The notes beneath the pieces are model-generated. The model saw only the letters and a list, made by a program, of their open reading frames with translations. It did not search any database and was not told the origin of the DNA. Source: Baffinella frigidus (Eukaryota > Cryptophyceae > Cryptomonadales > Baffinellaceae). Taken from it: a DNA stretch of 23,233 bases. The stretch lies in assembly GCA_026770585.1 (NCBI GenBank), contig MU647124.1:1-23233 (forward strand), given 5' to 3'. A program made the position numbers and the translations under genes. The first letter of the stretch is position 1; the number at the start of each line of letters is the position of its first letter. Shown in pieces: positions 2,726-22,952 of this stretch.

Positions 2726-2781
2726 TTTCGGGTTTCGGGTTTCGGGTTTCGGGTTTCGGGTTTCGGGTTTCGGGTTTCGGG
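2726..2781 (+). repeat. Homogeneous (TTTCGGG)8 block
   Basis: Eight uninterrupted copies of TTTCGGG, one substitution away from the surrounding TTTAGGG. The same variant reappears as (CCCGAAA)10 inside an intron at 10529-10598. Confidence 0.95.
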
Positions 2782-2843
2782 TTTAGGGTTTAGGGTTTAA
2801 GGTTTAGGGTATGGGGTTTATGGACCAGGGATTAGGTTCAGGG

Positions 2844-2940
2844 TTTTGGGTTTTGGGTTTTGGGTTTTGGGTTTTGGGTTGTGTGTTTTGGGTTGTGTGT
2901 TTTGGGTTGTGTGTTTTGGGTTTTGGGTTGTGGGTTGTGG
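2844..2940 (+). repeat. TTTTGGG block with TTGTGTG dimers
   Basis: Five TTTTGGG copies are followed by alternating TTGTGTG and TTTTGGG units, a 14-bp higher-order dimer, and then TTGTGGG units. The seven-base register is kept throughout. Confidence 0.9.
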
Positions 2941-3300
2941 GTTTAGGTTTCAGGTTGCGGGCTGTAAGGTGTCGGGGTTGGGGTTCATTATTCAGTGTTC
3001 AGTATCCAAGGATTAGGAGTCTAGGGAGTAGGGTTTAGAGTTTGGGGTTTAGTTGTGAGGATTGAGGGTTTAAGGTTTAGGGGTTTAGGGTCTAGGGTTT
3101 AGGGTTTAGGGTTTAAGGTTTAGGGTTTTGGGTTTAAGGTTTAGGGTTTTGGGTTTAGAGTTCAGGATTTAGGGTTTAGGGTTGTGGATTGTGGGTTGTG
3201 GGTTTAGGTTTCAGGTTACAGACGGTAGGATGTCGGGGTTGGGGTTCATTATTCAGTGTCCAGTGTCCAGGAACGAGAGTCTAGGGTGTATGGTGGACGC

Positions 3301-3685
3301 TTCAGGGTTTAGGCTGAGGCAGGGGGGACCAGGATTTTGGGGTTAGGCCTGGGCTCCAACCTGGTTGCGGGAGGACGGTTCGGCGTGAAGGTGTGGGGTT
3401 CAGGGTTTGGGGTGCAGGGTTCAGGATTTGAACCTGCGAGTTGACAAGGGGTGGGACCTCGTCAGACTCGAAGGGCTCGTCTGAACAAGTCAGCGACTTG
3501 TCGGCCTTATCGACTCCATCTCCGAGCGACATGCCGACCGCACTGCCAACAAGTGCCCCACCAGAGGCAGTCAGCAAAAGGTATGGGCAGATCCAGGTAC
3601 AGTCCGGTACCACCGTACAGGAAATGACAAGCCCCGAAAACAAATCCCGGAGCTATTGGCGATCTCCCGAAGGGTTCAGAGTTTA
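3301..3685. other. Non-repetitive island inside the heptamer field
   Basis: About 385 bases of mixed-composition sequence interrupt the heptamer repeats. The plus frame at 3441-3686 is rich in Ser, Thr and Pro and has no recognisable domain. The minus frame at 3302-3643 runs partly into repeat sequence. It could be a captured gene fragment or simply unique DNA that escaped repeat expansion. I see no splice structure that would make it an exon with confidence. Confidence 0.4.
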
Positions 3686-4210
3686 GGATTTAACGCTTGG
3701 GGGTTGGGGGTTGGGGGGCAGGGTTTATGGGTCTGCCGACAAACCACAAACCACAGGGTTTGGGGTCGAGGGTGTAGGTTCTGGTCCTGGGAGTGCAGTT
3801 GGGGTTTAGAGTTGGGTTGATGGTTTATGGTTTATGGTTTATGGTTTATGGTTTATGGTTCATGGTTTATGGTTTATGGTTTATGGTTTATGGTTTATGG
3901 TTTATGGTTTATGGATTGGGTTTTAGGTTGTAGGATTTCGGGTTGGGGTTCAGGGATTAGGGTTCAGGGTTCAGGCTTGAGGGTTCAGGGATTAGTGGTT
4001 TAGGGTTTAGGGTTTAGGATTAAGGGTTTAGAGTTCAGGGTTTAGGGTTCAGGGAGTAGTGGTTTAGGGTTCAGGCTTCAGGGTGTAGGATTTAGAGGTT
4101 TAGGGTTTAGGGTTTAGGGTTTAGGGTTTAGGGTTTAGGGTTTAGGGTTTAACGTTTAGGGTTTAGGGTTTAGGGTGTAGGGTTGTTGGAGTGGAGGGTT
4201 CAGGATTTAC
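3686..4210 (+). repeat. Second G-rich heptamer stretch with a (TTTATGG)13 block
   Basis: Degenerate GGGTTTA/GGGTTCA units resume after the unique island. At 3824-3914 there are 13 TTTATGG units in exact seven-base register (one reads TTCATGG). Perfect TTTAGGG copies follow near 4099-4150. Confidence 0.92.
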
Positions 4211-4440
4211 GGGCAAATGTTGCCGCAGGCATCCGACCCTATACCCGTACTGAAAACCCTGTTCCTAGGCATCAAAAACACCCCCTGGACTTCGGACCCT
4301 TTTCCTAGGTATCACAACCCATGCCCAGCATCAAACCCTAGTGCTAGAAAACAAGACCTGTTCCTAGGCATCAACCCCCAATCCTGGACAACGAACCCTA
4401 CACCCAGACTTCAACCCCTATTCCTGTTTTGCAGACCCTA
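4211..4440. repeat. Degenerate TTCCTAGGCATCA-containing repeat
   Basis: TTCCTAGGCATCA or a one-base variant occurs near 4261, 4304 and 4361, separated by C-rich sequence with AACCCT words. Base composition switches here from G-rich to C-rich on the plus strand, so this is the boundary of the left heptamer field. No gene is visible. Confidence 0.55.
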
Positions 4441-5130
4441 TGCTTAAATAGCTCTGGTGGGCGTGCTGACCAGGTAAGAACTGCGCGCAGCACCCGAAAC
4501 CGTGGGATTCACGAACTGATCCTGTCAGAATCCCCGACCCCCCCCCCCCCCAAAAGCGAAGATCCGGCACCTGGGAGCGCACCCATTCTCGCATGGATCC
4601 CTGCTCCCAGCTCCCCCCCCGAGCTTAGCACAGACAAAACAGCTCTGCATGCATGCCAGCCTCCCAGCAAGCTCAGCGAAGACAGTCTGATGATTATGAC
4701 GACCTGGTGGGTCGCACATGCATTACCCGCAGCCACGGGATGCCCACTCAACACCACCCGCGCGTGGGGGCCGTGGGGGGACCACGGCGGGCTGCGATCG
4801 CACAGTTCTGAAAGTGCAGCACCTCCCCGAGCTCAGCAGAGACCAGGACAGCTCTGGTGAGCATGCCGACGAGGACAGCTCTGTTGAGCATGCTGACCTA
4901 GTGGGCACCACCATCAGCACCCCGCACCGACGAGATCCCCACCCCCCAGTGGGGTACCAACCGCCTGTCGCCTCGAGCGAGTTTCCAACGCAAATTCCGT
5001 CTAGGGACTCGCGGGGGCAGCGCAGCACTACTCAGAGGGCAGGGAGCCACACCTAGGAGCACACCGGACTGACTTTGTGCAGAAGCCACTCCGATGGGGC
5101 GCCTGCCGCCGCAACACCGCCCCGCTGAAT
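4441..5130. other. C-rich stretch with no firm gene; two 27-bp tandem units
   Basis: Several overlapping frames are open on both strands (for example 4429-4860, 4718-5056), as expected of GC-rich DNA, and none resembles a known protein. At 4841-4894 two 27-bp units are tandem (GACCAGGACAGCTCTGGTGA and its near copy). In the 4718 frame they read DQDSSGEHA/DEDSSVEHA. A multiple-of-three unit in an acidic frame hints at coding, but that alone is not enough to call a gene. Confidence 0.35.
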
Positions 5131-5155
5131 CCTCGTATTTGCTGACCTCATCGGA

Positions 5156-5308
5156 CTGATGCATCAGCCTTCCACCTGACCTCCGCCCTGATGCATCAGT
5201 CGAAAATAGCTGATGCATCAGTCTTCGAACAGGTTATCCAACTGATGCATCAGTTATCTGGTACTGATGCATCACCGTGATGAAGCCTAAATAGAACTGA
5301 TTCATCAG
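5156..5308. promoter_or_regulatory. Cluster of six CTGATGCATCAG palindromes
   Basis: The 12-bp palindrome CTGATGCATCAG occurs exactly at 5156, 5188, 5210 and 5242. It has one change at 5264 (last base C) and one at 5297 (CTGATTCATCAG). Start-to-start distances are 32, 22, 32, 22 and 33, close to three and two turns of B-DNA, so all sites face nearly the same side of the helix. The best sites extend to AACTGATGCATCAGTT. The spacers are not obviously conserved. A binding array for a dimeric protein is the simplest reading, either an enhancer 1.5 kb upstream of the TIR gene or transposase-type subterminal sites. The function is inference; the motif and spacing are seen directly. Confidence 0.7.
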
Positions 5309-6812
5309 TTAATTAACTCCTATTATTGGGAACTTACTCTAGATTCTACGAAATGCAATCCAGGGCTGGACGCTTCCTTGAAGTTGACAGAAATGGCTCA
5401 AATTCCGCCGCAGAAAATGGCGTTCGCCGGTGAGTTTGGCACCCTGGCGGCGCTGGTGCAGGGGCAATGGAGCACGCACGGTGAACAAAACGTCAAGTAT
5501 CAATCCCGTGGACTCATCACCCCACAGCTGGGGTGCGCATCTGTGCAGAATCATGCCAGGTTCCCTTGATTTGGGTCGGGTCCCAGCTTCTGGAGGCCCT
5601 TGGCCGCGCCCCAGCTGCCACTGGTGCGTGTGTTTGCAGCGGATCGACTGTGCAGTCCATTTGGGTGGTGTAATGGTCGGCCGGGGCACTTTTAAACAAC
5701 TCCTGGCTGCCTGACACGCGTGCACGCCTTTGCTACGCGGTCGCTCCCGCACAAGCCTCGGGAGACGAGTACAAACTCACTCCAGGGTACGCCCACAACT
5801 TGTTCTGTGCACCCTGAGCCCTACGCAGCACTCATAGGGTGGAAGGTAGCGTGTGTCTGGTTACACCAGCGGCTCCTCAGTCACCGGTATTGGCGTCCAG
5901 GGGCGCTGACGCACAAACAGGATCAAACGCGGACCAGGTCCTTGGCCTGGCTCTGCAGCTGCTGTGGTCGCGCGGGTGTGTCGGAGAAGTCTCTCACCCG
6001 ACCAGGACGTACTATGGTGGATCCTGACCGCTTTGGGTGAACATCCGACGGCTGGCAACGGAGCTATGAATATTTGGAGCATGCTGATGACCACCATGCA
6101 CCGTGCAAAGAGCAGTTGCAAGGGGTTTCAACCCCGTTTCTGTGCACGAATGGCCAAACAACCTCTTTGAGGATCATTGCACATACAAGGCCGAAGTGTC
6201 TAACTTGGCCAGGCGCCGGCGTGGTTGTCCCAGGGCGCGGGCTTGGTGTCGAGACCAAATTCGAGTGCAACCACAAACACGGCCACGCAGCCGCGCATAT
6301 CAACTCTTGGCAGCCAGAAATTGCTTCCACGCGAGCGCTCACGTGTAGCCTTCGCAGCGCTCCGCCTCCTGGACCTGTCGCTCGGCGGACACTCCGTCAG
6401 CGCGCCGCCCAAGAACCCCCAAAAGCTGCCCCCAGAATAGACCACCCCACCTCGTATCCAGCCGTGGCTGTGCGCGTCGCGGTGCCGAAAAAACTTGTCC
6501 ACCGTATGCAGGGGGCTTGCCCCGTTGGATTCCGCCCCTCAGATCCACCGCAGGCCCCCGGTGGGCCTCTACCGGGTCCTGCCTCCGCCCAACTACAGAA
6601 TCTAGTTGGCCCAGGGGCTGTCAACTTTTGATTGCTCCTCGTCAACTCTTGGGTGGAATACCCCTTGGTCTAAAACGGGTCGCAGTATTAAAAAGCGGCA
6701 TTTCCTTTGAATCAGAGCGGAGGCCGACCGCCGACCGAGGTCTCTCAGCACCAAAGCACCATCTCGCGAGACCTCGAGCTCTCCGCTCACACCTCACCGG
6801 CGCTCCCCCCAG
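5309..6812. other. Upstream region of the TIR gene, no confident gene
   Basis: GC-rich, largely non-repetitive DNA. A 58-codon frame from ATG 5393 to 5569 and a 185-codon frame at 6074-6631 are open, but they have no recognisable domain and lie in a region where most frames stay open. A splice-acceptor-like pyrimidine tract ending CCCCCCAG at about 6812 sits directly before ATG 6815, so an untranslated or short first exon may lie in this stretch. An AT-rich word TATTAAAAAG near 6686 could be a TATA-like element, but this is weak. Confidence 0.45.
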
Positions 6813-6814
6813 CG

Positions 6815-7696
6815 ATGCCCGTGGTGGAGCTCCCCATTTTCGCCACCATGCGAGGCGCAGTGCTGGAGCTCGATGATGTCCCGATCAACCGAACCAGCGT
6901 CTCGCAAGAAATTATTTTTCTACCAGCAGCGTCCCAGCTGCCGCAGGGCAGCTTCAGTTTGCGCGGGGAGCTGATGCACGCATTTATCTCCTACCGCGTA
7001 TCCACCGAAGGGTCCGAGGGAAACGGGCTGAGCGTGATCATCGCAGAGAAGATCCGGACGCTCTCCATGGACAGCAGGCAGGAACTGCAGATCCCGCGGC
7101 ATGGGTGGGGGGTCTGGCCCCGGATCGCCAAGCAGCCGGTTCCTTTCCGGAAGGAGGAGGCCAAGGTTTTTTTGGACCGAGAATGCCTTCAGGACGGGCA
7201 GAGCTGGCTTGCGGGCTTCGTGAAAGCGCTGGTGGCCTCGATGGTAGTCGTGCCACTACTGAGCTGGACGGACGATGATAAGGGATCGGTGGGCGAGCTG
7301 AGCCGGATCGGGGATCGAGGTTTCGATCGGGTCGACAACTTGCTGCTGGAGCTTATCCTTGCGACGGCTCTGCGGGAGGAGCCAGCATCAGCAGTCCAGG
7401 CGGTGCTGCCGCTGATGATTGGCCCAGCGCGGACCGCGGCGGAGGGGGGGGGCTTCGGATCGTTCCCTTTCCACAAGCTGGCGGTGCTGTCGGACGAGCC
7501 GAGCAGGGCGACCAACGCGCAGGCAGGGGCGATCCTGCGGCAGCTGGGGCTGAGCGAGGACAAGGTGCAGGCTGTGCTGGGGCGCTCAGTGAAGCAGGTG
7601 GTGGGCCTGGTGCTTCGGAACCAGGGGGTGCAGGCTTCGCAGTGGGGAGGCGTGGAGGGTGTGGTTGCGGAGTGCGGGACGAGGGTGCTCAAGACG
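6815..7696 (+). CDS. Exon 1 of the large gene: TIR domain
   Basis: Box 1 reads HAFISYR (residues 55-61). KVFLDRECLQDGQSW (117-131) matches the 'vFlD...L..G..w' strand and loop of TIR domains, followed by hydrophobic VVVPLLSW (144-151). DNLLLELILATAL (174-186) places Glu179 where TIR NADases carry their catalytic Glu, and VLPLMIGP (197-204) gives the last strand. After the TIR domain comes an Ala/Leu-rich helical segment containing RNQGVQASQWGG. The exon ends AAGACG|GTGAGT. ATG 6815 follows an acceptor-like CCCCCCAG; ATG 6848 lies in frame with a near-ideal start context. The frame stays open through the 93-base intron into exon 2. The inserted loop between box 1 and KVFLD (62-116) is longer than in compact TIR domains. 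Confidence 0.8.
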
Positions 7697-10600
7697 GTGA
7701 GTCTTGCACCCCCCACACGCCCAGACCTCAGTGCTGCGCCCAGAACCTCCTGCCCATCTCCGCCCCTCACCCACCGATCCCTGACGCAGGTTCTGCAGGA
7801 GATGCGGCGGCTGCGGTCGGACCCGAAGTATTTCGAGCAGGGGAGGCCGATGGGGTCGGAGGTGCTGGAGTGGCTGCAGGTCTAGTGCCATTCCCTGGCG
7901 GACCCATGCAGCTGCGGTTGTCGAGCTGAAGGATGCGGCAGCACCACACAGGCCTTTTTGTATCTTGTTTTTGACATCACATTAGCTTGCAGGAAAGCAG
8001 ATCTAGCGCAGCCTAGATTGCATAGGATCGGCAAGAGCGTGTGTGGGGGGGTTGTTGATCGCGTTGGGTGACGGGAACGGATGGGCAGGTGGAGAACCTG
8101 CGGTCGTACGCGCCACTCTTCATCCATCACGACCTCGACTCCCTCGCCTATGTGAGACCCGTGCCATGCTGTCGGTGATGTCAGTCTGTGCTCTTTGCTG
8201 GCCCTGCCTACCCCAGGTTTTCCGTATAAGTACTAGGGGGCGTCGGTTTCCACCACCCCTCGGTTGCTACGCACCGGGGCGTATCAGGGTTTGGCCAAAC
8301 GATCAAAACAATTCACTTCGGAGCGCGGGGGGGCTGCGTCTGACGCCTGATGAGACCTGCAGAGAATCCCACGACTATTCAGGAATCAGAGCGTTTTCTG
8401 GTACTAACCCTGCCCGGTTTAGTTACCATCCCTGGAGGTAGACCCATGCAACCGAAGACGCGTATGTGTGCACAGCCGGAGGCCTCAATCATGGCAGCAG
8501 CAGTCCGCGATGTTCTCAATCGCGAGTCATGGTCAGGTGGCGCGGCTGGAGCCTGAGGGGATCCACCAGATCATCGACGAGCATCAAGAGGTTTCGCCGC
8601 CCCCCCTGGTAGAATCTTGACAGTTTCGAGGGGGCGTTGAAGCCATTTTGTATATTCACGGTCTGGCATACCTTCGTGTGGTGCCTGACCGCGCTGGCAT
8701 GTGCCGCAGCTCTACCCACGGAGCGGAAAGAAGGGCGTGCTGGGCGGAGAGCTCCAGAAGCTCGAGACGGTACGTGAACCCTGAACCCGAAAACCGAAAA
8801 CCGAAACTCTAAGACGAAACCCGAAACCCAACACATGTGACAGGGTCAGGTCCATCTCTTACTAGGGGTGGACACCATGATTTCAGGATCAACCCAATTC
8901 GGGCATTCCAGACTCCAGAGTACCCTGCAGTATTGCATACCGAAGCACCTACGGACTTTCGTGATTAGAATTGTTACCGGAAGTAGGGCGACTACCCGTA
9001 TCGCCATTGACCCGACAGGCCCCACACTCCTCGCATCCGGATACGATCCTCATTCGCTCTAGCCCCCCAACAACCCCTCAAACTGTGAACCGGGGCGCAG
9101 GCGCACCGCAAGCTCCTGCCCACGACGCCCCCGCGCTGCCTCGGGCTGGTCGGCGTGAGACCGGATGAGCGCACACTGCCGCTTTCGGAGCGCTTAGATA
9201 ACTACACGGATACGCAGGCGAGTGCCTTGGCAATTATGACGTCGGGCAACGGACTGGAGCTGTTGTATTCGAAGGCGGTGCCGCGATGGGCCTGGGTGGG
9301 GCTATGGACTGCGGGTGCTCTGGCTCAGTTGCTCTGGCCGCGCAGCCCTGGCATGGAGGTCACGTTTCAGAGGGACTTCGGTCGGGGCTACGTTTTTTCC
9401 CTGTTTTTCGTTACTGGACTGCTCCCGCTGGTGTGCCGGACAGGGCGGATGTTCGTGCATTTTTTGCAGTGGTGGATTCCTGTCTTCCTCTTCGGGCTGT
9501 GGTTCGTATTGCTGTGCTACGAAGGGATCGCGACGGGACATTGGGCCACCGCGGGATTATGGGCGCCCATCCTAGTGCCGATAGTCATGCTGCTCAGGTT
9601 TCGAAAAAGGCATTTCCTCCCTGGATTTTTCTTCTCTCTCTCTCTGGGCTTGGTTCTTAGCCCGGCAGTAACGTGCGTCCACTACGCCACAATTGACGGT
9701 GCCGATTTCGGGTCCTACAACGAGTGTGCCGAAACGACGTACCGAGCATGGATGGTGCTTCTGTTAGTTGCTTTTGCCTGCTGCCTCTTCCTGGTCGGCC
9801 GCAAGTTCGCGAACGACGCATGGGCGTTTCGCGCCGCAAGAGCGTCCAGAGAGCTTCACAGGCAAGCTCCACAACTCTTGACACTCAGTTGCCCAGCCCA
9901 GCTCCGACGTTGGTCTCTCTTGCCCCAAACTGCTTTTCTCAACTGCGTTCAAATGTGCAGGGCTCTGTGGCGGGACGAGCTGAGCAAGGTCGCGGCGAAT
10001 CCTCAGGTGCCTTGCAGATAACCTCTCAATGTGCCAACACACGTCACTCAACCTTGCCCCCCATCCGGGATTCTTGCATCCCACACAGAGACTCGGGGCT
10101 TTAGCGCTGCACGCCCATCTCGGAACCCTGAGCCAGGTGATGGACGGCCTGCGGCGCCTCCCGCATGGGATCCTGCACGAGCTGCAGGAGCAGAGGAGGC
10201 AGGCGGTGCGGTCGCTCGGAGTGGTAGGCCCCGGTCCCCGGATCCTTGAATTATCGCTCTTTCTCCGGAGAGGGCAACTGCACCCTCAGTCCAAGCGATG
10301 TCTGAGACCCTGTGCGTGTTCGACTGTCTTGATAGGGCTACTGATTCAACGGAAGCAACCGTAGGGCCTCAGCCGCAGCCTCAGCCGCAGCCGCAGCCTC
10401 TGCCTCAGCCGCAGCCTCTGCCTCAGCCGCAGCCTCTGCGCGTCAGGTTGGAAGGGCCTACACACTAAACCCCGAACCCGAAACCCCAAACCCCAATAAA
10501 CTCTCAACTCTCAACACTTAACATTAAACCCGAAACCCGAAACCCGAAACCCGAAACCCGAAACCCGAAACCCGAAACCCGAAACCCGAAACCCGAAACC

Positions 10601-12965
10601 CTACACGTGAGGTTGGGAAAGGGGCCTAAGCCCTAAACCCTAAACCCTAAACCCTGAACCCTAAACCCCAAACCCTAAACCCTGCCTACACCCTAAGCCC
10701 TGAACCCCAAACCCTAAAACCTAAATCCTCAACCCTACACGTCAGGTTGGGAGGGTGATGGGCTTCCTGAATCAGCGCGTGGGGCGCTGGTCGCTGGGGG
10801 GATACAGGAGCAAGGCACGTCAGGTGAATGCCAAATAGTTCAGGGTTCGTATTTCGGTGTTGTTCTCAACATGCCTCTTGAAGATGGAGCGCCGCATGTG
10901 CGGAGAGCCTTTTGGGGGTGAAGCGCGGTTCTGGAACCTGAGCGCCTTGACGGTAGGGAGAAGCTGAGCGGTAGCGCAGGTGAATGGCACGGAGCCCTGG
11001 TGTCGTTTTTCGTTGTTGTTCTCAACATCCCTCTTGAAGACGGAGCGCATGGAGAGCCTTTTGGGGGTGAAGCGCGGTTTTGGAACCTGAGCGCCTTGTT
11101 GCAGAGAAAGGCGCTTCATTGGACAGGCGCTTTCTCTGTAGAAAGGCGCTGGGGTTCCAGACACGCGCTTGCTTTCCTGAAAGGCGCCCGGAAAGACGTT
11201 TGGGTTTCAGAAAGGCGCCCGGGGCGTGAAAAGGCGAAGCTCGTGGAGGTAGCCATGCGCTCTGGCGCGGTGTTTTGATCTCACGAAGCTTGTTGGCCAA
11301 GCGTGTGGAAACTCCAACAAAACTCTCGAATTAAATCCCATCCATTGAGAAGCCGTGCGCGGGTCATTCATTCTTCTTTTCTTTTCGGGCACAGGTGCAT
11401 GGAGACATCGACCTGCTGTTCGACGAGGCGACCATGGTGACTAAGCCTCCCGTGCACCCACAAAACTGGCTCACTCTGGCTTCACCACCTTTCAAACCTG
11501 TTTCTCCATCAGCGTGTCACCCACACATCCGGTGCCCTCAAGTCTGAACACTCACCCGTGTGCCCCCATCACCATTTCAGGTCAACGAGCCGTTCCTGGA
11601 TCTGATTGCCTCGCTGGTGGCCGGCGCTGGCGGCGTGGACGGTAAGCAGCCTCTTCCAAATTCTCTTGATCACGCTATGGTGACCCCGACCCCTCATCCG
11701 GCATCAACCAATCATGGTCCTGGCAGCAGACCACGCACACAGTCACTCACTCACTCACTCACTCACTCACTCACTCACTCACTCACTCACGCACTCACTC
11801 ACTGACGATCCTGCTCGAACCAGAATCTTCTGCGAAGCCAGGCCTGGCGCTGAAGCGGGGGCCGATCAAGAAGCCAGGCCGCGCCCTGCAGAAGCTCGTG
11901 CGATTGTATGCGCCCTGAACCCTGCCCCCGGCACATGTTTTCTGAGATGCTCGACGGCAGGGCCTGACGTCTGCACCACTCTGTGAGGGCAGGTACGGGC
12001 GGGACGTGGCAAGGCTGACGGACCTGGTGCGGTGCACTGTGCTTGCGGAGGACCTGAGCCAGGTAACATCGCACGAATCAACACACACCCGGCCCTGAGA
12101 ACATTCAGGAGTCCAATCGATGTTCGCACACAGCTGGCACCCTTTAGCAGCTCCTTGATTGGAGCCGCGAGACGGCCAGCAGCTCAATTGCCTGCACGCT
12201 TGGCGTGAGAGCCTACACCGCCCGACAGGTGGAGGCGCTCATTACGACGCTGGATGCGCGGTCGGTGGTGGGGCTGGCGGCAGTGGCGGCGAGGGGAGAT
12301 GAGGGAGAAGAGGTGGTTCTAGTGCTGGACAATTCAGATGACGAGCGGATATTCCGAATCACGGCGATCAAGAACAGGTTCAACGAGAGCTACGACGACA
12401 ACAAGAGCGGAGGGTACCGCGACCTGTCTCTGAGCGTCGAGGTGGTGCTCCCTGCTCTGCGTTTGATTTCGACAGGATTTCCAAGTGCCTGCTACCCTGC
12501 ACCCTTGCCTCAAACCCAGAGTGTGAGGGCTGTTGCTGTGGCCGGTGGCAGGTGGGGTGGGTGATGCAGGAGGGACTGGTGTCGTTTGAGAGGGTGCGGG
12601 ACTGGGAGGCGAATGAGTGCCAGCGGCACATCTGCGAGATCCAAGGTGCGCCCGGCTCAATGTCCGAACCGTGCACTGCTAGGATCACAGGCTGCGCTGG
12701 CAGGCAGGGTTGCATGCTGGTGGTGTCGGGAGCAAGCGTGAAGTGGATCTGACGTGACTCTTTGCGGCTGCAGTGCACCTGCGGAGCCAGCATCACCAGA
12801 TCGTCAACGAGGGGCTGCACAAAAGGTTTCATGCCCTCTTCACCTCTGGAAGCGTTTTTGCAGAGTGATAGCTACTCGAGTTGTTGCTCCGCCCACAGCT
12901 TGCGGTCTCATGCTGGGCCCCGTCCGGACAGATACGTGGAGCTCCGCAACAAGTACAACCACTAG
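6815..12965 (+). CDS. Multi-exon TIR - six-TM - RelA/SpoT-like protein
   Basis: Exons read as 6815-7696, 7790-7879, 8537-8590 (or 8608), 8710-8769, 9101-9861, 9961-10006, 10089-10223, 10746-10823, 11395-11436, 11581-11641, 11824-11905, 11993-12062, 12229-12441, 12552-12645, 12774-12825 and 12932-12965 (TAG). All junction phases match, including four split codons at the 3' end (Glu, Leu, Val, Arg), which strongly supports the 3' half. The ~917-residue product has a TIR domain (~54-200), a helical linker, six membrane segments (~425-597), a second linker and a RelA/SpoT-like domain (~740-917). By family knowledge, TIR domains signal or cleave NAD and RelA/SpoT domains transfer pyrophosphate to guanosine nucleotides. 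Whether either is active here is inference. Weak points: the start (ATG 6848 has the stronger context, GCCACCATG), the poor donor GTCTAG of intron 2, a GC donor at 9862, and the 522-base repeat-filled intron 10224-10745, which could instead separate two genes. Confidence 0.65.
7790..8769 (+). CDS. Exons 2-4: helical linker after the TIR domain
   Basis: Exon 2 (7790-7879) encodes VLQEMRRLRSDPKYFEQG and ends EVLEWLQ. Exon 3 begins at 8537 after TGGTCAG and reads VARLEPEGIHQIIDEHQE, ending at 8590 or, with the better donor GTAGAA, at 8608. Exon 4 (8710-8769) reads LYPRSGKKGVLGGELQKLET and has a consensus donor GTACGT. All junctions are phase 0. Exon 2 abuts GTCTAG, a poor donor whose TAG is in frame, so retention of intron 2 would end the protein one residue later as a soluble TIR-only form. 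The exon 3 boundaries are the least certain part of the model. No named domain is recognised. Confidence 0.6.
9101..9861 (+). CDS. Exon 5: six-transmembrane segment
   Basis: The exon opens after GGGGCGCAG with AHRKLLPTTPPRCLGLVGV and a hydrophilic stretch. Six hydrophobic segments follow: WAWVGLWTAGALAQLLW (~425), GYVFSLFFVTGLLPLVC (~458), a Trp/Phe-rich one (~480-504), WATAGLWAPILVPIVMLL (~510), FLPGFFFSLSLGLVLS (~534) and WMVLLLVAFACCLFLVG (~579). No transporter or channel signature is evident. With an even number of spans and no signal peptide, the TIR and RelA/SpoT-like ends would face the same side, presumably the cytosol. The exon ends CACAG|GCAAGC, a GC-type donor in phase 2. The joined codon is Arg, giving SRELHR|ALWRDELSK. 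The 99-base intron is stop-free and a multiple of three, so reading through it is also possible. Confidence 0.7.
9961..10823 (+). CDS. Exons 6-8: linker between membrane and C-terminal domains
   Basis: Exon 6 (9961-10006) reads ALWRDELSKVAANPQ after the split Arg. Exon 7 (10089-10223) contains LGTLSQVMDGLRRLPHGI and HELQEQRRQAVRSLGV, strongly helical. Exon 8 (10746-10823) reads VGRVMGFLNQRVGRWSLGG and ends SKARQ|GTGAAT. All are phase 0 at their free ends. Exons 7 and 8 are separated by 522 bases holding a CCTCAGCCGCAG minisatellite and CCCTAAA/CCCGAAA tracts. This is the one place where the model might wrongly join two neighbouring genes. Confidence 0.6.
10367..10438 (+). repeat. Hexamer-based minisatellite in intron 7
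   Basis: Twelve consecutive hexamers of three kinds (CCTCAG, CCGCAG, CCTCTG), the last nine organised as an 18-bp unit. In one frame it would read as Pro-Gln/Pro-Leu repeats, but it lies between a good donor (10224) and a good acceptor (10745). Confidence 0.9.
10465..10738 (-). repeat. Intronic CCCTAAA/CCCGAAA heptamer tract
   Basis: C-rich telomere-type heptamers fill most of intron 7, including ten exact CCCGAAA units at 10529-10598. The word CGTCAGGTTGG (or CGTGAGGTTGG), which forms the true acceptor of exon 8 at 10740-10750, also occurs at 10441 and 10606, each time directly before a heptamer run. Confidence 0.93.
10824..11098 (+). repeat. Intronic tandem duplication in intron 8
   Basis: 10824-10949 is repeated at 10980-11098 (offset 156, then 149 after a small deletion). 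Shared words include GTGAATG, GTTGTTCTCAACAT and GAGCCTTTTGGGGGTGAAGC. The first copy begins exactly at the splice donor of exon 8. The second begins after GCGCAG, so an acceptor-like and a donor-like word abut there. Confidence 0.85.
11099..11260 (+). repeat. AAAGGCGC-rich intronic patch
   Basis: GAAAGGCGC or AGGCGC words recur about seven times, several next to CCCGG. The patch lies in intron 8 between the tandem duplication and exon 9. No coding sense is visible. Confidence 0.6.
11395..11641 (+). CDS. Exons 9-10: segment leading into the RelA/SpoT-like domain
   Basis: Exon 9 (11395-11436) follows a pyrimidine tract ending GGGCACAG and reads VHGDIDLLFDEATM. Exon 10 (11581-11641) follows ACCATTTCAG, reads VNEPFLDLIASLVAGAGGVD, and leaves one base of a split Glu codon before GTAAGC. 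Their phases fit the neighbouring exons. The introns are 144 and 182 bases. Confidence 0.7.
11743..11803 (+). repeat. (TCAC)n microsatellite in intron 10
   Basis: About fifteen TCAC/CACT tetranucleotide units with one GCAC interruption, 20 bases before the acceptor of exon 11. Confidence 0.95.
11824..12965 (+). CDS. Exons 11-16: RelA/SpoT-like domain
   Basis: After splicing, the exons give a continuous domain. Basic GPIKKPGRALQKLVR (~749-763) leads into LYGRDVARLTDLVRC (764-778), which corresponds to the synthetase 'D(l)xGxR' strand. RITAIKNRFNESYDDNKSGG leads into GYRDLSLSVE (849-858), the 'K...GYxSLHxxv' motif with Lys846 four residues before Tyr850. CEIQVHLRSQHHQIVNEGLH (886-905) with KRY matches 'EIQiRT..MH..AE.G.AAHW.Y'. 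By family knowledge the Asp binds metal, the Tyr stacks on guanine and the Glu is catalytic; all three are present. The usual His after GYxSL is Ser here, and the hydrolase (HD) domain of long RelA/SpoT proteins is absent. Three of the five introns split a codon, and the rejoined codons (Leu, Val, Arg) restore the motifs. That is hard to explain unless the model is right. Confidence 0.75.
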
Positions 12966-12997: not shown

Positions 12998-13110
12998 CAG
13001 GGGTTCATCGCTCGTCAGGAGGCGCACCCCCTAGGCCCCTACAGTAGGCTTATACACCTATGGCCCTACCTTGGTCCTAGGGGGAGGGGGGCGCGACTTC
13101 TGTGCTGGGC
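12998..13110. mobile_element. MITE family A, diverged partial copy
   Basis: It begins TA|CAGGGGTTCATCGCTCGTCA and carries the CCCTAGG...GGTCCTAGGGGG core, but the right terminal repeat is not recognisable. It starts 32 bases after the stop codon of the large gene, so it probably lies in its 3' untranslated region. Confidence 0.6.
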
Positions 13111-13292
13111 GGTTGTGTGAGGACTAGCGTGGGAAAGGCCCACCTAGGAAGCTCTTGGAGCTATTGGATGGAGGGATTAGGGTATTGGGGGATTGAAGAT
13201 TAACTGGTTGAGGTCGATGTCGAGCTTGGGGTTTGGGGTTCGGGTTTCGCGGTTCGGGTTCGCGGTTTCGGGGATTGGGGTTTACAGGGGTG

Positions 13293-13399
13293 CAGGGGTA
13301 CCTCGCTCATAAGAAACCGAATCCGCCTAGGACCCTACAGCAGGCTATCCCTAGGGTCCTAGGGGGTGGGCGGTTTCTTATGAGCGAGGTGCCCCTGTA
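13293..13399. mobile_element. MITE family A, full copy
   Basis: The left end CAGGGGTACCTCGCTCATAA and the right end TTATGAGCGAGGTGCCCCTG are near-perfect inverted repeats around the CCTAGGACC...GGTCCTAGG core. TA follows the right end. Confidence 0.88.
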
Positions 13400-13467
13400 C
13401 CTCGCTCATACGAAAGTGCCCCCCATCCCTAGGACCACCATAGAGCTCTAGACATAGGCCTACTGTA
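13395..13467. mobile_element. MITE family A, left half only
   Basis: Starts immediately at the end of the previous element (TGTACCTCGCTCATACGAAA) and continues through the core to TAGGCCTACTGTA, then stops. The right half is missing. The two elements share the junction bases, which suggests a tandem or nested insertion followed by deletion. Confidence 0.75.
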
Positions 13468-13537
13468 CCTGGGTTCCGTGTTGGTAATGCATGTAGTATG
13501 GTGGGGGTGCGTACATGGCGGCCAAGTTGGTATTGAT

Positions 13538-13620
13538 ACATGTCAAGGTCTCTCTATCTCTGGCTCTCTCTCTCTCTGTCTCTCTCTCGAGAAATACAGA
13601 TCGGTCTCTCTCTCCCGACT
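13538..13620. repeat. CT-rich arm of an inverted repeat (partner 14348-14403)
   Basis: TGTCAAGGTCTCT, then a CT run, then CTCGAGAAATACAGATC and CTCTCCCGACT. The reverse complement of 14348-14403 contains the same words in the same order. In both places the CT side abuts an inverted-repeat element. Confidence 0.75.
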
Positions 13621-13630
13621 GGGGCAGGCG

Positions 13631-13734
13631 TATCCCATAAGTGGCCAGTGGGTTCATACGCTCTACCGTAGGGCCCTAGGACCTGCCCAGGACCTCAGGG
13701 GGTCTATTTGGACCCCCTTACCACTTAAGGGATA
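13631..13734. mobile_element. MITE family B, copy 1
   Basis: Ends TATCCCATAAGTGG and CCACTTAAGGGATA are inverted repeats that include or abut TA. The interior carries CTACCGTAGGGCCCTAGGACC. It is about 104 bp, the same size as the copy at 19997-20100, and has no coding capacity. The right end touches the next family A element. Confidence 0.8.
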
Positions 13735-13851
13735 GGGGCACCTCGCTCATAACAAAGCGCACCCCCCCTAAGATCACCAGAGGGCCCTAGGCATAGCCCT
13801 ATTGCAGGGTCCCAGGAGGATGTGCTTTCTTGTGAGCGAGGCACCCTTTTG
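13735..13851. mobile_element. MITE family A, full copy (diverged ends)
   Basis: GGGGCACCTCGCTCATAACA at the left and CTTGTGAGCGAGGCACCC at the right, around an AGGGCCCTAGGCATAGCCCTA core. The shared GGCACC change in both arms suggests compensating change or an inherited subfamily variant. Confidence 0.8.
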
Positions 13852-13880
13852 CGTTAAGTCAACCCTCTGGTACTAAATTA

Positions 13881-13920
13881 AAGGGAAAACACCGACCAAT
13901 GTCGGAGCACCCGTGTTCTT
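13881..13920. repeat. Dispersed GACC-ATGTCGG-CCCGTGTTCTT repeat
   Basis: ACCGACCAATGTCGG and ACCCGTGTTCTT here match GACCGACCGATGTCGG and ACCCGTGTTCTT at 22411-22435. The right-hand copy lies inside the large family A relative, so this may be a scrap of a similar element. Confidence 0.6.
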
Positions 13921-13989
13921 ATCCCAGATCCCCCTGTAGGGTCCTACAATAGGCCTAACCTCCCAAGGGACTCTGAAAAACCTAAAGTA

Positions 13990-14110
13990 CAGCGGTTCCT
14001 TGCTCATCAGAAAGCGCCCCACCCCTAGGACCACCGTAGGGCCCATGGCCTAGGCCTACCTCAGGGGCCTCTAGGGTGGGGCGCTTTCTCATGTGCGAGG
14101 TACCCCTGTA
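13990..14110. mobile_element. MITE family A, full copy with TA flanks
   Basis: TA|CAGCGGTTCCTTGCTCATCA at the left and TCATGTGCGAGGTACCCCTG|TA at the right, with a core of CCCTAGGACCACCGTAGGGC and GGCCTAGGCC. TA is present on both sides, as expected of a TA target-site duplication. Confidence 0.85.
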
Positions 14111-14182
14111 GGCCAACACCCACAGCCCTACGGTGGTCCTTGGGGGCAGGAGGGACTCCATATGAGCGAGGTATCCGTCTAC
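14111..14182. mobile_element. MITE family A, right half only
   Basis: CCTACGGTGGTCCTTGGGGG followed by TATGAGCGAGGTATCCGTCT matches the right half of family A. It directly abuts the previous copy, and the left half is missing. Confidence 0.7.
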
Positions 14183-14196
14183 AGAAGGGGACGACG

Positions 14197-14340
14197 GCCT
14201 AGCTCTGTATCAGGCTATTTGGGCTCACCAATTTGGTGAGCCCGGGCTGTTCTCCGCCCCAAAGTTGACGGATTGGTACCCGCAAACCCAGCATGTCAAC
14301 TTGCGAATAGTCGGTGAACCCGAGTGAGGCAGAGCTAGAC
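14197..14340. repeat. Hairpin region with a perfect 11-bp stem
   Basis: 14221-14243 is GGGCTCACCAA-T-TTGGTGAGCCC, a perfect inverted repeat with a one-base centre. An outer imperfect pair, GCCTAGCTCTG (14197) and CAGAGCTAGAC (14330), brackets it. There is no coding sense. It could be a further short inverted-repeat element. Confidence 0.65.
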
Positions 14341-14403
14341 GGCTGTTGGAGACAGTCGGGAGAGAGAGAGATCTGTATTTCTCGAGACAGAGACCTTGAC
14401 AAG

Positions 14404-14428
14404 GGCATCTCGCTCATAAGAAAGCTGA
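14404..14428. mobile_element. MITE family A, isolated left end
   Basis: GGGCATCTCGCTCATAAGAAAGC matches the family A left terminal repeat. Nothing after it matches the element interior. Confidence 0.7.
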
Positions 14429-14559
14429 AGCGTCGTTTCGTTTGATCAAGATTGGTCAAAGCGGGGTACGAACTTCGTACGGATGTTTCCTGTACGAACT
14501 AAGTGAATGTGGGCAGAAGCAGCATGGACCACCACGCCGCACCGAACGCTGTGTGGTTT

Positions 14560-14655
14560 GGGGTTTAGGATCTAAAGTTTAGGGTATTGGGTGCAGGGTG
14601 CAGGGTGCAGGGCTTAGGGTTCAGAGTTCAGAGTTTAGAGTTCAGGTTTTGAGAG
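14560..14655 (+). repeat. Short G-rich heptamer tract
   Basis: GGGTTTAGG, GGGTGCAGGGTGCAGGG and TTCAGAGTTCAGAGTTTAGA words continue the degenerate telomere-type repeat family. Confidence 0.8.
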
Positions 14656-14712
14656 TATCTAGGATCTAAGGGCATGAGGACGAAAGATTGTGAGACCGCC
14701 AAGGTAGATTTA

Positions 14713-15089
14713 CCTAGAGCCGGTTTTTTGAGCGGCCTGATCCAAATATTATTTACAAACGGTCATCTCAAGCCTGATTTTTTTGAATTTTTGTTTCAGG
14801 TTCCAGATGGGGGGGAGGGGGGGGGGGGGTCAGTTGAGGTGCGGGGAGTGGGAGGGGCGCCATGCGGGGCGCCGTGGGCTGAAAAAAAATGGGCAAAAGT
14901 TTTTTGAAAAAATTGTAAAGCAAAAAGACTCAAAATTGTAAGGGCCCCTTACAATTTTAAGTCTTTTTCAAAATCATTTCCGGCCAGTTAGAATTTGGGG
15001 CTCATGGGACATCCCCAGGATCTCCGGCCAGTTAGAATTTTTGAGATGACCTTCGATCAGATCAGCCCGCTAAAAAAAACGGCTCTAGG
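14713..15089. mobile_element. Long-inverted-repeat element, ~377 bp
   Basis: The left arm reads CCTAGAGCCGGTTTTTTGAG (14713) with GGTCATCTCAA further in (14761). The reverse complement of 15041-15089 reads CCTAGAGCCGTTTTTTTTAG with GGTCATCTCAA further in, so both arms carry the same words in the same order. The interior includes a 23-bp arm hairpin (14922-14968) and two copies of TCCGGCCAGTTAGAATTT. A clear target-site duplication is not visible. It looks like a non-autonomous element unrelated to families A and B. Confidence 0.65.
14922..14968. repeat. Near-perfect 23-bp hairpin
   Basis: The arms 14922-14944 and 14946-14968 pair at 22 of 23 positions around a single C. The A/T-rich outer stem ends in an A run on one side and a T run on the other. 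It sits inside the long-inverted-repeat element. Confidence 0.85.
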
Positions 15090-15129
15090 CCTCCGAAGTA
15101 AATTCACTCAAGAGAGTTGACTGAAAACT

Positions 15130-15370
15130 CTAGTCCAGAGGTTTCAGAGTTCAGGGGTTGGGGGTTAGAGTTTTTGGTTCAGGGTTTTGGTTTCAGGGGT
15201 CTGGGTTCAAGGTTTAGGGGGCAGGGTTTAGGGTTTAGGTTCCAGGGTTCAGGGTTCAGGGTTCAGGGTTGTGGGCTCAGGGTACAGGGTTCACGGTTTA
15301 TGGCTTGTGGTTCGGGTTTTAGGGTGCAGGGTGCAGGGTGCAGGGTGCAGGGTTCGGGTTCTAGGGTTTA
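15130..15370 (+). repeat. G-rich heptamer tract
   Basis: GGGTTCAGGGTTCAGGG, GGGTGCAGGGTGCAGGG and TTTAGGG units. The 216-codon frame starting at 15117 is mostly a translation of this tract and is not accepted as a gene. Confidence 0.88.
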
Positions 15371-15989
15371 CTTTGAAAAAATGCACGCTGGTTCAAAAAA
15401 GGCGTGTGTTAGCCGGGTGTTCTTTCCTCGGTGGTCAATCCCCAATCCTGAATTTGACCAGTGCCCCTGCCTCTGCCCGCCACACCACCGCGCGTGCTGC
15501 ATGGTACGAGTAGGATCCTGTAGTCTCGTACGAGGCTCGATACGAGCTCCTACGAGCTTCGTACCCGGCGTGGGCTCCTCAGGCACGCCAAGCACCGAAG
15601 ACGAGATTCGGCGGCACGTCGAAGCGTCAAGATTGGTCAAACCCACCGGTGGAAACCAGGTCACAAGCCTCAACGTACGTACGTACATGCAACCCCTCCG
15701 GAAGCATGATCTTCAGATAGGTCACGAGGTTTCTTGGTTTTCGGACGAGATGACAAAAACATTCTAAAATCACGTGACCAGGTTGTTTTTGTGGTTTTCC
15801 GTTAGGATCCAGGGGTCCACCGGCCCTCCCACACGAGACTCTTCCCAACGGCAAGATATAGGGACGACCACGGAGCCCCAGGTCGCTGACAGCCGAAGGG
15901 TTGGTCTGTCTTGCGTGCTGCGATTGAAGGACAGGCCGGATCCGGCTCCGGAGGAGAGAGAATATTCGATCTCTCCTCCGGAGCAGTTG
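15371..15989. other. Unassigned stretch with a 14-bp stem hairpin
   Basis: No gene is recognised. Features seen: clustered CTCGTACGAG-like words at 15525-15570; AAGATTGGTCAAA shared with 14448-14460; and a perfect hairpin at 15949-15986 with stem CTCCGGAGGAGAGA, loop GAATATTCGA and the complementary stem. The hairpin ends just before the 50-bp direct repeat at 15990. Confidence 0.45.
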
Positions 15990-16040
15990 TGAGCCTCGGT
16001 CGGACAGGTGATGAGCCTCGATGGTTGACTAATGAAGGTA
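15990..16040 (+). repeat. 50-bp direct repeat, left copy
   Basis: It matches 17918-17967 at 47 of 50 positions and ends GACTAATGAAGGTA. The bases following the left copy make a consensus splice donor, AAG|GTAAGT. A further match (GTGTGTCGGGCCTTGGCC versus GTGTGTCGGGTCTTGACC) follows about 100 bases after the left copy and directly after the right copy. Confidence 0.85.
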
Positions 16041-16761
16041 AGTTCTCTCTCATCCGTAGATTACACCCAACTCCTCAAGAGTGAGGTGGGTTGTGGCCTT
16101 CGACGTGAGTGTAAATAAAAGCACCAAAGCACCAAATCTCGCTTGTGTGTCGGGCCTTGGCCGGCGCGGCCTCGCCCCTCCTAAGCGGGGTCTCATCTGG
16201 TAGCGAAGGTCGTTCCGGGGCTCTGTTCCCCGGAACGATCAACGGATGGCAGAAAAAGCGGCGGGCGGAGCGCTCGCGAAGCGGCACACTGGGGTTGACG
16301 AAAAAGACGGGGCCGAAGTTCCTGGCGATGGGGCTCTGTCCTAAGCGGGGTCTCAGCAGCCCATCCGTCAGTGTCAAGCCTCCAGCCAAGAGGACATGCT
16401 GCACAGCTAAAGCGGTGTGGGGTTGCAGTGAGCTAGAGCGAGCATATATAGCCCTCTGGTAGGCTCGCCTGTCAGCCCGCCCGGCAAAGGGGGGGGGCGG
16501 GTAGCTCCCTGATAGCGATGCTCGAGCGCAGAGACCATCCCCGCCCCAGCATCATGCATGCCCAGAGGCCCCACAGAGCGAACAGCGAATCTTCACCTGA
16601 TTCTGCAACTGATCTGCCGAGAAAGCACCTTTTGTTCTCAGATCACAGAGAGACCCTGCCCGTCGTCCTAACGACCTGCCCCGGACCACGACAACCGAAA
16701 TCGCTGACGACAACGCCGACCCACCCCTCCAGATTCGGCCATCTTGTACGCTGCGCTCGCG
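16041..16761. other. Upstream region of the small gene
   Basis: It contains AGCACCAAAGCACCA...TCTCGC (16120-16142), shared with 6747-6767 upstream of the TIR gene. A hairpin with stem CGTTCCGGGG lies at 16211-16237. CCTAAGCGGGGTCTCA is present twice (16180, 16340), bracketing a 32-codon frame (ATG 16246 to TAA 16344, MAEKAAGG...) that cannot be judged real. CATATATAG at 16443 is TATA-like but 310 bases from ATG 16762. Confidence 0.45.
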
Positions 16762-17917
16762 ATGGAGGAAGGTCTCTTCGGGTGGATCAGCGAGCTCTGG
16801 TTGTTCGTCTCCTGCGCGCCAGCCCCCCCCAACAAAACGGTGCAATCGGTGAATGTCGTCACACGGTTTCCTATGGCAGCGCCTGTCGCTCGAGAAAGTG
16901 GGCCTCCGAAGGATGCCGAGCCTCCAGTGGCTACCAAGGATCGCCGCGGGCCGGCCCCGGACAAGAACGCGGATCAGGCGAAACAGGGGCTGCGCAAGGC
17001 CCGAGAAAAGCTGGAGTTGTTGCAAAAAAAGCACAAGAATTCCAACACCAAAGCGAATGCTCTGGGAGAGCAATTGACACAGGTGCGCGGCTGGATAAAC
17101 CTGGACTCGGAGGCTGTAGGGGGGAGAGGGCTACATCCAGGGTGCTGGTCTGGCGTTGGTTGTGATCATGGAGACGTTGTCGATTAGAGCTAGGATCCTA
17201 CTGGACACTTACCCAGTGCTGGAAGCTTGCCCAGCGCTGGACGCTTACCTAGTGGGATTGGGTAGCGTCCAGCACTGATCCAGTCCCGATGAGAGCGCGG
17301 TGCGCCGTGGTGGTCCATCACGATAATACTGACGGGAGCCCCCCCCGCAGGTTGCTATGACAAATTCGTCTACTGAGGCCAAACAGTACACCGCTGGAAA
17401 GTACGCCCCCTACCCTGCTCCCCGCACCTTCAGCTCAATTTTTGCCACGTCAACGCGCCTGTCAGCTCTGAATCCCCGCCACCGCGTTGCTCGCTGACTG
17501 GCCTGATCGAAAGTGGCACCGACTGGCTGAAAGTATTGAAGAAACGCCCCTCCAGGCACGCGATGATCTAAGGTCCTGCCTAGGTAGCGACAGCCCTTTA
17601 GGTCCTTGAGGTTCTTTTGACTCCCACCATAGGCGGACACCAGAACTTGTTCTGCAGAAAAGCCATGCTTCAAAACACGTTGTTTTAACCTGAGTGGCAC
17701 GCGTCTCTGCAGGATACGCGAAGAGCTGCGCAGGCTCCGCTCGGTCGTGCAGCCCGACCTGGAAGGGGACATTGCCAAGGCGCTGGGGGCAGTCGAGACC
17801 CTCGAGACCACCGTGACCACGCACGGAAAGGCCAGGGCCTTTTTGTTCAAGAGCGATTCCTTCTCTAACTCCCGGTCTTTTTTGAACCGCCGTGAGGCTG
17901 CCGCGCTGAGGGTGTGA
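16762..17917 (+). CDS. Small three-exon gene, charged helical protein of unknown function
   Basis: Exon 1 (16762-17082) ends CACAG|GTGCGC in phase 0. Exon 2 (17351-17400) follows CCCCCCGCAG and ends GGAAA|GTACGC in phase 2. Exon 3 (17713-17917) follows TCTCTGCAG and completes a Lys codon before IREELRRLRSVV, with TGA at 17915. The ~191-residue product has a hydrophobic N-terminus (GLFGWISELWLFVSC), a Pro-rich stretch, a charged helix likely to coil (GLRKAREKLELLQKKHKN), then VAMTNSSTEAKQYTAGK and a second helical region containing QPDLEGDIAKALGAVETLE. ATG 16873 (MAAPVARE) is an alternative start if the hydrophobic lead is not coding. Exon 1 may also be entered from an upstream exon at GGCAG 16878. 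I recognise no family. The 268- and 312-base introns both carry repeats. A minus-strand frame over exon 3 (17410-17850) is mostly shadow, although its intron part resembles the dispersed repeat at 21897. Confidence 0.6.
17201..17254 (+). repeat. 18-bp unit, three tandem copies, in an intron
   Basis: CTGGACACTTACCCAGTG, CTGGAAGCTTGCCCAGCG and CTGGACGCTTACCTAGTG are consecutive. An inverted partial copy (GGGTAGCGTCCAGCACTGA) follows at 17259, so the patch can fold back. It lies in intron 1 of the small gene. Confidence 0.85.
17594..17640 (-). repeat. Dispersed repeat in intron 2 of the small gene
   Basis: CCTTTAGGTCCTTGAGGTTC followed by ATAGGCGGACAC matches CCTTTAGGTCCTTCAGGTTT and ATAGGCGGACAT at 21897-21942. 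Read on the minus strand, both give an SAYGGSQKNLKDLKG-like peptide (exact at 17594, altered at 21897), so the repeat may derive from a coding sequence. Confidence 0.65.
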
Positions 17918-17967
17918 GAGCCTTGGTCGGACAGGTGACGAGCCTCGGTGGTTGACTAATGAAGGTA
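17918..17967 (+). repeat. 50-bp direct repeat, right copy
   Basis: It starts with the base directly after the stop codon of the small gene and matches 15990-16040 at 47 of 50 positions. Confidence 0.85.
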
Positions 17968-18236
17968 TCTTTGGTGTTGCGTGTGTGTCGGGTCTTGACC
18001 TCTGCTGTATGGACCGTGAGGCGTCGCCCAGGGGCTCTTCTCTGATGGCAGCAGATGCCCTCTCCTAGACCATGGTCGATGATTCGGTACCTTTCCTCAC
18101 GTGGTTGGGTAATTCCAGTTGGCTAGTCCCTGGTCACTTCTGGCCTCTCCCCACTGCTGTGAGGATCGAATCCTGGAAGATGGAGTCCTAGACGGGCCCT
18201 TTCGGGCTCCGTCCTCACTACTGCCGAGTAGCGGTA
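17968..18236. other. Downstream flank of the small gene
   Basis: No gene is seen. TAGACGGGCCC...CGGGCTCCGT...ACTACTGCCG.GTAGCG occurs here (about 18191-18235) and again directly after the next element (18356-18401), so an imperfect ~45-bp duplication brackets the family A copy. Confidence 0.55.
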
Positions 18237-18357: not shown

Positions 18358-18401
18358 GACGGGCCCGCCTCGGGCTCCGTGATGACTACTGCCGCGTAGC
18401 G

Positions 18402-21780: not shown

Positions 21781-21784
21781 CATA

Positions 21785-22942: not shown

Positions 22943-22952
22943 AGTCCTACCC

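Follow-up and report, generated by a model that had tools for sequence, protein, structure and literature searches.

Among RelA/SpoT-superfamily enzymes, SAS1/RelQ and SAS2/RelP are soluble single-domain bacterial proteins that use GDP and GTP as acceptors, Tas1 is a RelA-fold (p)ppApp synthetase that serves as a type VI effector, and the CapRel/toxSAS proteins are tRNA pyrophosphokinases in phage defence. The plant and plastid RSH proteins (RSH1-4) carry an HD hydrolase domain with the synthetase, and TGS/ACT or EF-hand parts. SARM1, in turn, is an NADase with the order ARM-SAM-SAM-TIR, and many TIR domains are known to work by assembly. Here we describe a gene of the cryptophyte Baffinella frigidus whose predicted protein appears to join a TIR-like domain, a SAM-like domain, membrane spans and a C-terminal RelA/SpoT-like domain. 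It lies on contig MU647124.1 (GenBank assembly GCA_026770585.1, 382 Mb in 1364 contigs), of which positions 1 to 23,233 of the forward strand were analysed; this stretch of 23,233 nucleotides is referred to as the window. The function that we favour, tentatively and at a little under an even chance, is that of a membrane-anchored stress or immune receptor in which an NAD-cleaving TIR domain and a pyrophosphokinase with a non-guanosine acceptor would both face the cytosol.

The C-terminal domain resembles SAS1/RelQ and SAS2/RelP in its predicted fold and shares with them the order of the ATP/metal motif, the G-loop Tyr and the EIQ strand (judged by eye against E. coli RelA), but unlike these enzymes it ends a TIR-SAM-membrane protein and misses the acceptor-loop Asn. 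Tas1 differs in being a secreted bacterial effector with neither a TIR nor a membrane part, and a use of adenosine nucleotides by the algal domain would be an analogy. CapRel/toxSAS proteins are likewise bacterial, have a toxin-antitoxin arrangement and contain no TIR or membrane spans. With SARM1 the algal protein shares the presence of TIR and SAM in one chain and a candidate catalytic Glu, placed by motif position in the third TIR helix; in contrast to SARM1 it has another domain order, one SAM instead of two and no ARM repeats that could be found, and it continues into membrane spans and a RelA-like domain.

In eukaryotes, synthetase-domain proteins have been reported from plants, Dictyostelium, a few fungi and two diatoms, RelA-type enzymes being known mainly from plastids apart from a few scattered cases, according to one survey (PLoS One 2011, PMC3153485), the main text of which mentions neither TIR nor transmembrane nor cryptophyt. 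The divRel proteins (Dictyostelium, some fungi and two diatoms) resemble the protein studied here in that they are eukaryotic, have a synthetase domain and fall outside the plant RSH group, but they are described in the same survey as a synthetase domain alone (PMC3153485). Bacterial conflict systems use TIR and RelA domains alike as effectors (PMC7159879, section 13), and polymorphic toxins can contain RelA/SpoT-like domains (PMC3482391). No description of a TIR domain paired with an alarmone synthetase was found in the open-access papers searched; judged from sequence, the domains would be known ones, in a combination that we did not find described.

Gene structure and relatives

The exon chain runs on the + strand from the ATG at 6815 to the TAG at 12965 and comprises 17 exons encoding 922 amino acids (aa), without internal stops and with consistent phases, so that the coding part spans 6.15 kb. 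Splice sites are GT-AG throughout, the sole exception being the GC-AG intron 9862-9960; the donors of exon 2 (GTCTAG) and exon 4 (GTTTCG) are weak. Exon boundaries were placed by eye so as to hold the frame. A preliminary model of 15 exons and 945 aa was amended at three places by comparison with relatives, namely the addition of exon 10746-10823, the GC-AG intron and the later acceptor at 10137. The translation of the intron 9862-9960 is missing from all seven relatives that run through the site (P0001, P0002, P0007, P0009, P0012, P0013 and P0016; by eye). In the features listed below, "model" refers to the exon model and "tblastn" to searches of the relatives against the window.

6815..7696, + strand: exon 1, N-terminus and whole TIR-like domain (model; tblastn of P0001-P0004; profile comparison with bacterial TIRs)
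6953-7429, + strand: TIR-like domain within exon 1, residues ~47-205 (profile comparison with bacterial TIRs)
7349-7351, + strand: codon of the candidate catalytic Glu179 (model)
7790..7879, + strand: exon 2, start of the SAM-like domain (model; tblastn; Pfam)
8089..8151, + strand: exon 3, SAM-like domain (model; tblastn; Pfam)
8537..8590, + strand: exon 4, SAM-like domain (model; tblastn)
8710..8769, + strand: exon 5, end of the SAM-like domain (model; tblastn)
9101..9861, + strand: exon 6, linker with conserved SGNGLEL motif, then six predicted membrane spans at about 9290-9799 (model; tblastn; alignment), with Cys575 and Cys592 in the last non-cytosolic loop (model)
9862..9960, + strand: GC-AG intron, in frame and stop-free (comparison with relatives by eye)
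9961..10006, + strand: exon 7 (model; tblastn)
10137..10223, + strand: exon 8, cytosolic helical linker (model; tblastn)
10746..10823, + strand: exon 9, VGRVMGFLNQRVGRWSLGGYRSKARQ, found through relatives (alignment; model; tblastn)
11395..11436, + strand: exon 10, linker (model; tblastn)
11581..11641, + strand: exon 11 (model; tblastn)
11824..11905, + strand: exon 12, start of the RelA/SpoT-like domain, K757 and K765 (model; tblastn; fold from relative P0005)
11993..12062, + strand: exon 13, LTDLVRCTV with Asp779, metal-binding by analogy (model; tblastn)
12229..12441, + strand: exon 14, acceptor loop KSGGYRD with K851 and Y855 (model; tblastn)
12552..12645, + strand: exon 15, HICEIQ with E892 and Q894 (model; tblastn)
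12774..12825, + strand: exon 16, His-rich helix (model; tblastn)
12932..12965, + strand: exon 17 and stop codon (model; tblastn)

A chance chain of open reading frames (ORFs) was ruled out, as every one of the 17 exons is matched by at least one relative (tblastn, E<=0.01) and the identity of P0001 across 905 aligned positions is 58%. Protein searches gave 18 relatives in total (P0001-P0018), of which the named ones all belong to Baffinella frigidus and show 49-85% identity over the aligned parts. P0001 (JGI, 965 aa; by the search tool's count 53% identical across 97% of the preliminary 945-aa model) has the full order of TIR, SAM, six spans and RelA-like domain, and P0002 (eukprot, MMETSP0988; Baffinella frigidus, Cryptophyceae) extends from the TIR through SAM and spans into the RelA-like domain and stops after the first part of the latter. 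Both proteins cross the point equivalent to 10224 without a break, instead of ending before it or starting after it, and in P0007 and P0012 the spans are joined to the RelA-like domain. Together with the predicted fold described below, these four relatives bear out the central claim of an earlier note on this DNA, i.e. that a TIR domain, membrane spans and a RelA/SpoT-like fold occur in one protein. P0001 is inferred to be transcript-derived, because it has 965 uninterrupted codons and the longest contig is 3481 nt, compared to the 6.15 kb across which the coding part is spread in the window.

Other relatives cover parts of the protein: P0007, P0009, P0012, P0013 and P0016 have all or the last of the spans joined to the RelA-like domain, P0003 and P0004 represent the N-terminal half, with P0003 departing from the family within the spans and P0004 missing part of the TIR including the E179 stretch, and P0015 (ena) is related to the C-terminal part more remotely, at 36% identity. 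P0018 seems to contain introns that were read through. Seven B. frigidus gene models with pieces of the family (P0004, P0006, P0009, P0011, P0014, P0016 and P0017), four of them marked partial, lie on seven separate contigs, which suggests that the window gene belongs to an expanded family.

Pattern scans, which reach close relatives only, gave 10 + 42 matches for the RelA-like core in viruses or prokaryotes and 76 for the TIR in viral contigs, none of which was confirmed. On plasmids, the P0001 TIR piece (insert cut) and the P0001 RelA-like core found tblastn matches only at E 5 or worse. Within the same reach of close relatives, PADLOC showed no match for P0001 or P0002, and PHROGs, with P0001 as sole query, returned two matches (E 0.26 and 0.31).

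RelA/SpoT-like C-terminal domain

The C-terminal domain was modelled on the relative P0005, and the predicted fold (pLDDT 63) matches alarmone synthetases. In a Foldseek search of this model against the PDB the top 19 rows were RelA/SpoT-superfamily enzymes (best E 3.1e-5), the best matches being SAS1/SAS2, and a CapRel title among the rows named a tRNA pyrophosphokinase. A RelA/SpoT-superfamily nucleotidyltransferase fold is thus supported for the C-terminus by a model of middling confidence, in agreement with the earlier proposal. The motif order that had been read from the sequence is also present, with D779 in LTDLVR, K851 and Y855 in KSGGYRD, E892/Q894 in EIQ and a His-rich helix ending in HKRY, although the Lys of KSGGYRD is kept in only 8/13 sequences.

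Residues were mapped through a by-eye alignment with E. coli RelA, with core counts over 8 sequences and loop counts over the 13 that contain the acceptor loop. In this alignment GPIKKPGRALQKL falls ungapped on GRPKHIYSIWRKM, LTDLVRCTV on LFDVRAVRI, KSGGYRD on KPNGYQS, CEIQVHL on VEIQIRT and LHKRY on AHWKY. All 8/8 cores, including the distant P0015, have the same Asp, Glu, Gln, two Lys and Tyr at RelA's ATP, metal and stacking positions; in RelSeq these residues hold ATP, the metal and the acceptor base. The first Arg of the R-x-K motif is replaced by Pro in all eight cores. In the acceptor loop (K-x-N-G-Y) the Tyr is found in 12/13 sequences, the Lys in 8/13 (M, T, S, Q or I in the remaining five) and the Asn in none.

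PF04607 (cut-off 27 bits), to which the earlier note had pointed for a check, did not match the window model and matched 2/8 cores (best E 0.02, probably well below the cut-off), and hhalign of the RelA-like profile against a single E. coli RelA segment gave no match. As a yardstick, the E. coli RelA segment itself finds SAS1 and SAS2 among PDB sequences and neither Tas1 nor CapRel (E<=10). Searched exon by exon, the genome of the window gave no PF04607 match at E<=0.001 and no first-look candidate, while the family was found in 11/14 control genomes; as this search also showed no ordinary RSH gene, it says little on the window gene. No Pfam match to HD hydrolase, TGS/ACT or EF-hand was obtained in the 922-aa model, in a scan that missed TIR, SAM and RelA_SpoT too, and the order of TIR, SAM and spans leaves no obvious room for an HD-type hydrolase domain.

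Since the donor and metal site is kept and the guanosine-acceptor loop is not, the domain most simply reads as a pyrophosphokinase with a non-guanosine acceptor. Alarmone synthesis, as implied in the earlier note, would be in keeping with the fold, but the classical ppGpp acceptor-loop residues are not kept, and the putative activity is probably better put as transfer of pyrophosphate to some acceptor. It is nevertheless conceivable, if unlikely, that the domain makes (p)ppGpp like any ordinary synthetase of the cytosol and that the protein would thereby link membrane or TIR sensing to the alarmone. Weighing against our preference here are the fold itself, with the ppGpp synthetases SAS1/SAS2 as best structural matches, and the window copy, which has both K851 and Y855. 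Ordinary ppGpp synthesis is doubted because two acceptor-loop positions are not conserved, the Asn of the NGYxS loop being absent throughout and the Lys replaced in 5/13; the Pro in place of the first R-x-K Arg argues in the same direction, the residue roles being those of RelSeq.

A similarly small chance is given to the domain being a nucleotide-binding pseudoenzyme that regulates the TIR. This explanation draws on the drift of the acceptor-loop positions, with a Cys in place of the loop Tyr in P0014 (not one of the eight cores), on the distance of the sequence from the Pfam family, and on the precedent of several cyclic nucleotide (cNMP) cyclase domains, fused to a vWA component of bacterial conflict systems, which are reported to lack activity and perhaps to do no more than bind (PMC7159879, section 13). 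An invariant set of Asp, Glu, Gln, two Lys and Tyr that extends even to P0015 argues for a working donor site instead.

P0014 (B. frigidus T484DRAFT_1915314, 226 aa) is also of note for its composition. Its N-terminal part scores 19.2 bits with the ADP-ribosyltransferase family ART, PF01129 (E 8.3e-4; cut-off 22.3), and its C-terminal part corresponds to the stretch of the RelA-like domain that contains the G-loop and EIQ, with 84.8% identity across 79 aa. This may be a second case in which the RelA-like domain is fused to one that uses NAD, unless the gene model is wrong.

TIR-like N-terminal domain

The stretch matched to bacterial TIRs comprises FISYR, VFLD..CL.DG.SW and ASMVVVPLLS, and in the domain an insert of ~31 residues separates helix A from strand B. 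The reference set consisted of eight bacterial TIR-hit proteins from plasmid records (8 of 50 rows listed), of which L006 is annotated as DUF1883 domain-containing and L009 is a piece without the first strand. Against these references hhalign gave E 0.0047 for the intact alignment (score 23.6, probability 7.5%; best of 200 shuffles 22.9) and E 1.6e-4 without the insert (score 31.1, probability 50%; best shuffle 21.3), and 0/200 shuffles scored as well in either case. Reversed profiles gave E 0.54 and 0.46, and all controls, i.e. the reversed profiles and the RelA-like core, 0.28 or worse. When 27 sliding windows of 128 columns were run along four relatives, the P0001 starts 77, 107 and 139, on the TIR, reached E 0.0035-0.0049 and the remaining windows 0.059 or worse. 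When each of three references was omitted in turn, E was 8.8e-5 to 1.4e-3 without the insert and 0.0023 to 0.037 with the domain intact.

The Pfam TIR models did not match the intact domain, either in the window or in the relatives; with the insert removed TIR_2 was the only Pfam match, in 2/4 sequences, at E 0.044 and 0.25 and with scores of 14.7 and 12.3 bits where the cut-off is 28. Nor did a TIR appear in PDB profile searches, whether the alignment was intact or insert-cut. The TIR identity claimed earlier therefore stands as a profile similarity to bacterial TIRs above controls, and not as a Pfam match. We regard the N-terminal domain as TIR-like, a weaker call than that of the RelA-like domain. 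Glu179 was found as the earlier note had stated, and is the same residue in all four covering sequences (window and P0001-P0003), within a conserved DxVDxxLLE. Its helix falls outside the profile-aligned part, and its putative role as catalytic Glu of helix C therefore rests on motif position.

These limits on the TIR call are a drawback for an NAD-cleaving receptor and would suit a domain that acts only as a scaffold, by self-association with other TIR proteins, while the RelA-like domain signals. The aligned part stops short of the Glu helix and the call is at profile level, and assembly is a common mode of action of TIR domains. Nevertheless, the conservation of the candidate Glu, 4/4 with its surrounding motif, speaks against a pure scaffold, which we hold to be rather improbable.

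SAM-like domain and membrane topology

A SAM-like domain, which was not part of the earlier description, follows the TIR at residues ~312-383. P0001 matches SAM_1 (E 7.2e-4, 20.3 bits against a cut-off of 23), and SAM_2 matches in all four of P0001-P0004, each 1.3 to 5.7 bits under the cut-off. The SAM piece of the window matches SAM_2 with E 0.0069 (17 bits against 20.5), while the whole 922-aa model gives no SAM match.

Of the six hydrophobic spans proposed initially, five are clear in the hydropathy scan, between residues 476 and 616, and the first, at about 447-468, is weak (mean 0.54); span ends were placed by hand. Two further stretches flagged by the scan, residues 132-150 of the TIR and 795-813 of the RelA-like domain, are taken for buried parts of their domains. 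The loops that follow spans 1, 3 and 5 have basic-to-acidic counts of 1:2, 0:1 and 0:4, and those that follow spans 2, 4 and 6 have counts of 1:0, 3:0 and 6:2, which by the positive-inside rule suggests that both ends of the protein are cytosolic. A Cys pair like Cys575/Cys592 is kept in P0001, P0002, P0004, P0007, P0009 and P0012 (by eye), and because of this and of its place in the last non-cytosolic loop a disulfide is likely.

Proposed function

As we envisage it, the polytopic receptor would present both enzyme-like modules on the cytosolic side. An infection or stress cue may act on the membrane part or through SAM-driven clustering, which would bring TIR domains together and switch on NAD+ cleavage through Glu179. 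The RelA-like domain would move pyrophosphate from ATP onto something other than GDP/GTP; the known precedents are Tas1, where the acceptor is an adenine nucleotide, and CapRel/toxSAS, where it is tRNA. The stress or immune output would then have two arms, i.e. loss of NAD or a signal derived from it, and a growth-stopping nucleotide modification. An immune or stress role is plausible by analogy, because TIR and RelA domains are effector modules in bacterial conflict systems. If true, a gene family of such membrane proteins with both modules, in one algal lineage, would imply that eukaryotes built their own receptor by recombining nucleotide weapons of the bacterial type. It also raises the question whether a cytosolic eukaryotic RelA-like enzyme that modifies non-guanosine nucleotides could be coupled to NAD+ cleavage.

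The two enzymes might also work in series, with the TIR making an ADP-ribose-type product from NAD+ and the RelA-like domain pyrophosphorylating this or another adenosine acceptor, which would yield an undescribed second messenger. We consider such a relay quite improbable; the gene model P0014, in which the same RelA-like domain stands beside an ADP-ribosyltransferase-like domain, would fit a standing link of the domain to NAD chemistry. The faintest prospect, that two adjacent genes were wrongly joined, could appeal to the large repeat-bearing intron 10224-10745 between the membrane part and the RelA-like part, but is contradicted by P0001 and P0002, which run continuously across that junction, with P0007 and P0012 joining spans to RelA-like domain.

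Flanking regions and repeats

No Rfam family matched at its gathering score anywhere in the window. In the flanks (1-6800 and 13000-23233) ten long ORFs were compared with Pfam and none reached the cut-off, the best match being YfdX (E 0.035). A 7-base unit resembling the plant telomere repeat (CCCTAAA / CCCGAAA and relatives) forms degenerate arrays at 1598-3208, 3802-4184, 10526-10737, 15139-15368 and 18829-21741, the third of which sits inside the gene's intron 10224-10745. A (CACT)n array at 11732-11803 lies within the intron 11642-11823, and a comparable repeat-rich read-through is seen in P0018 (by eye). Finally, just downstream of the gene, at 13000-14450, there are several short MITE-like fold-backs with arms of ~30-49 bases and a core like ACCTCGCTCATAAGAAAG.
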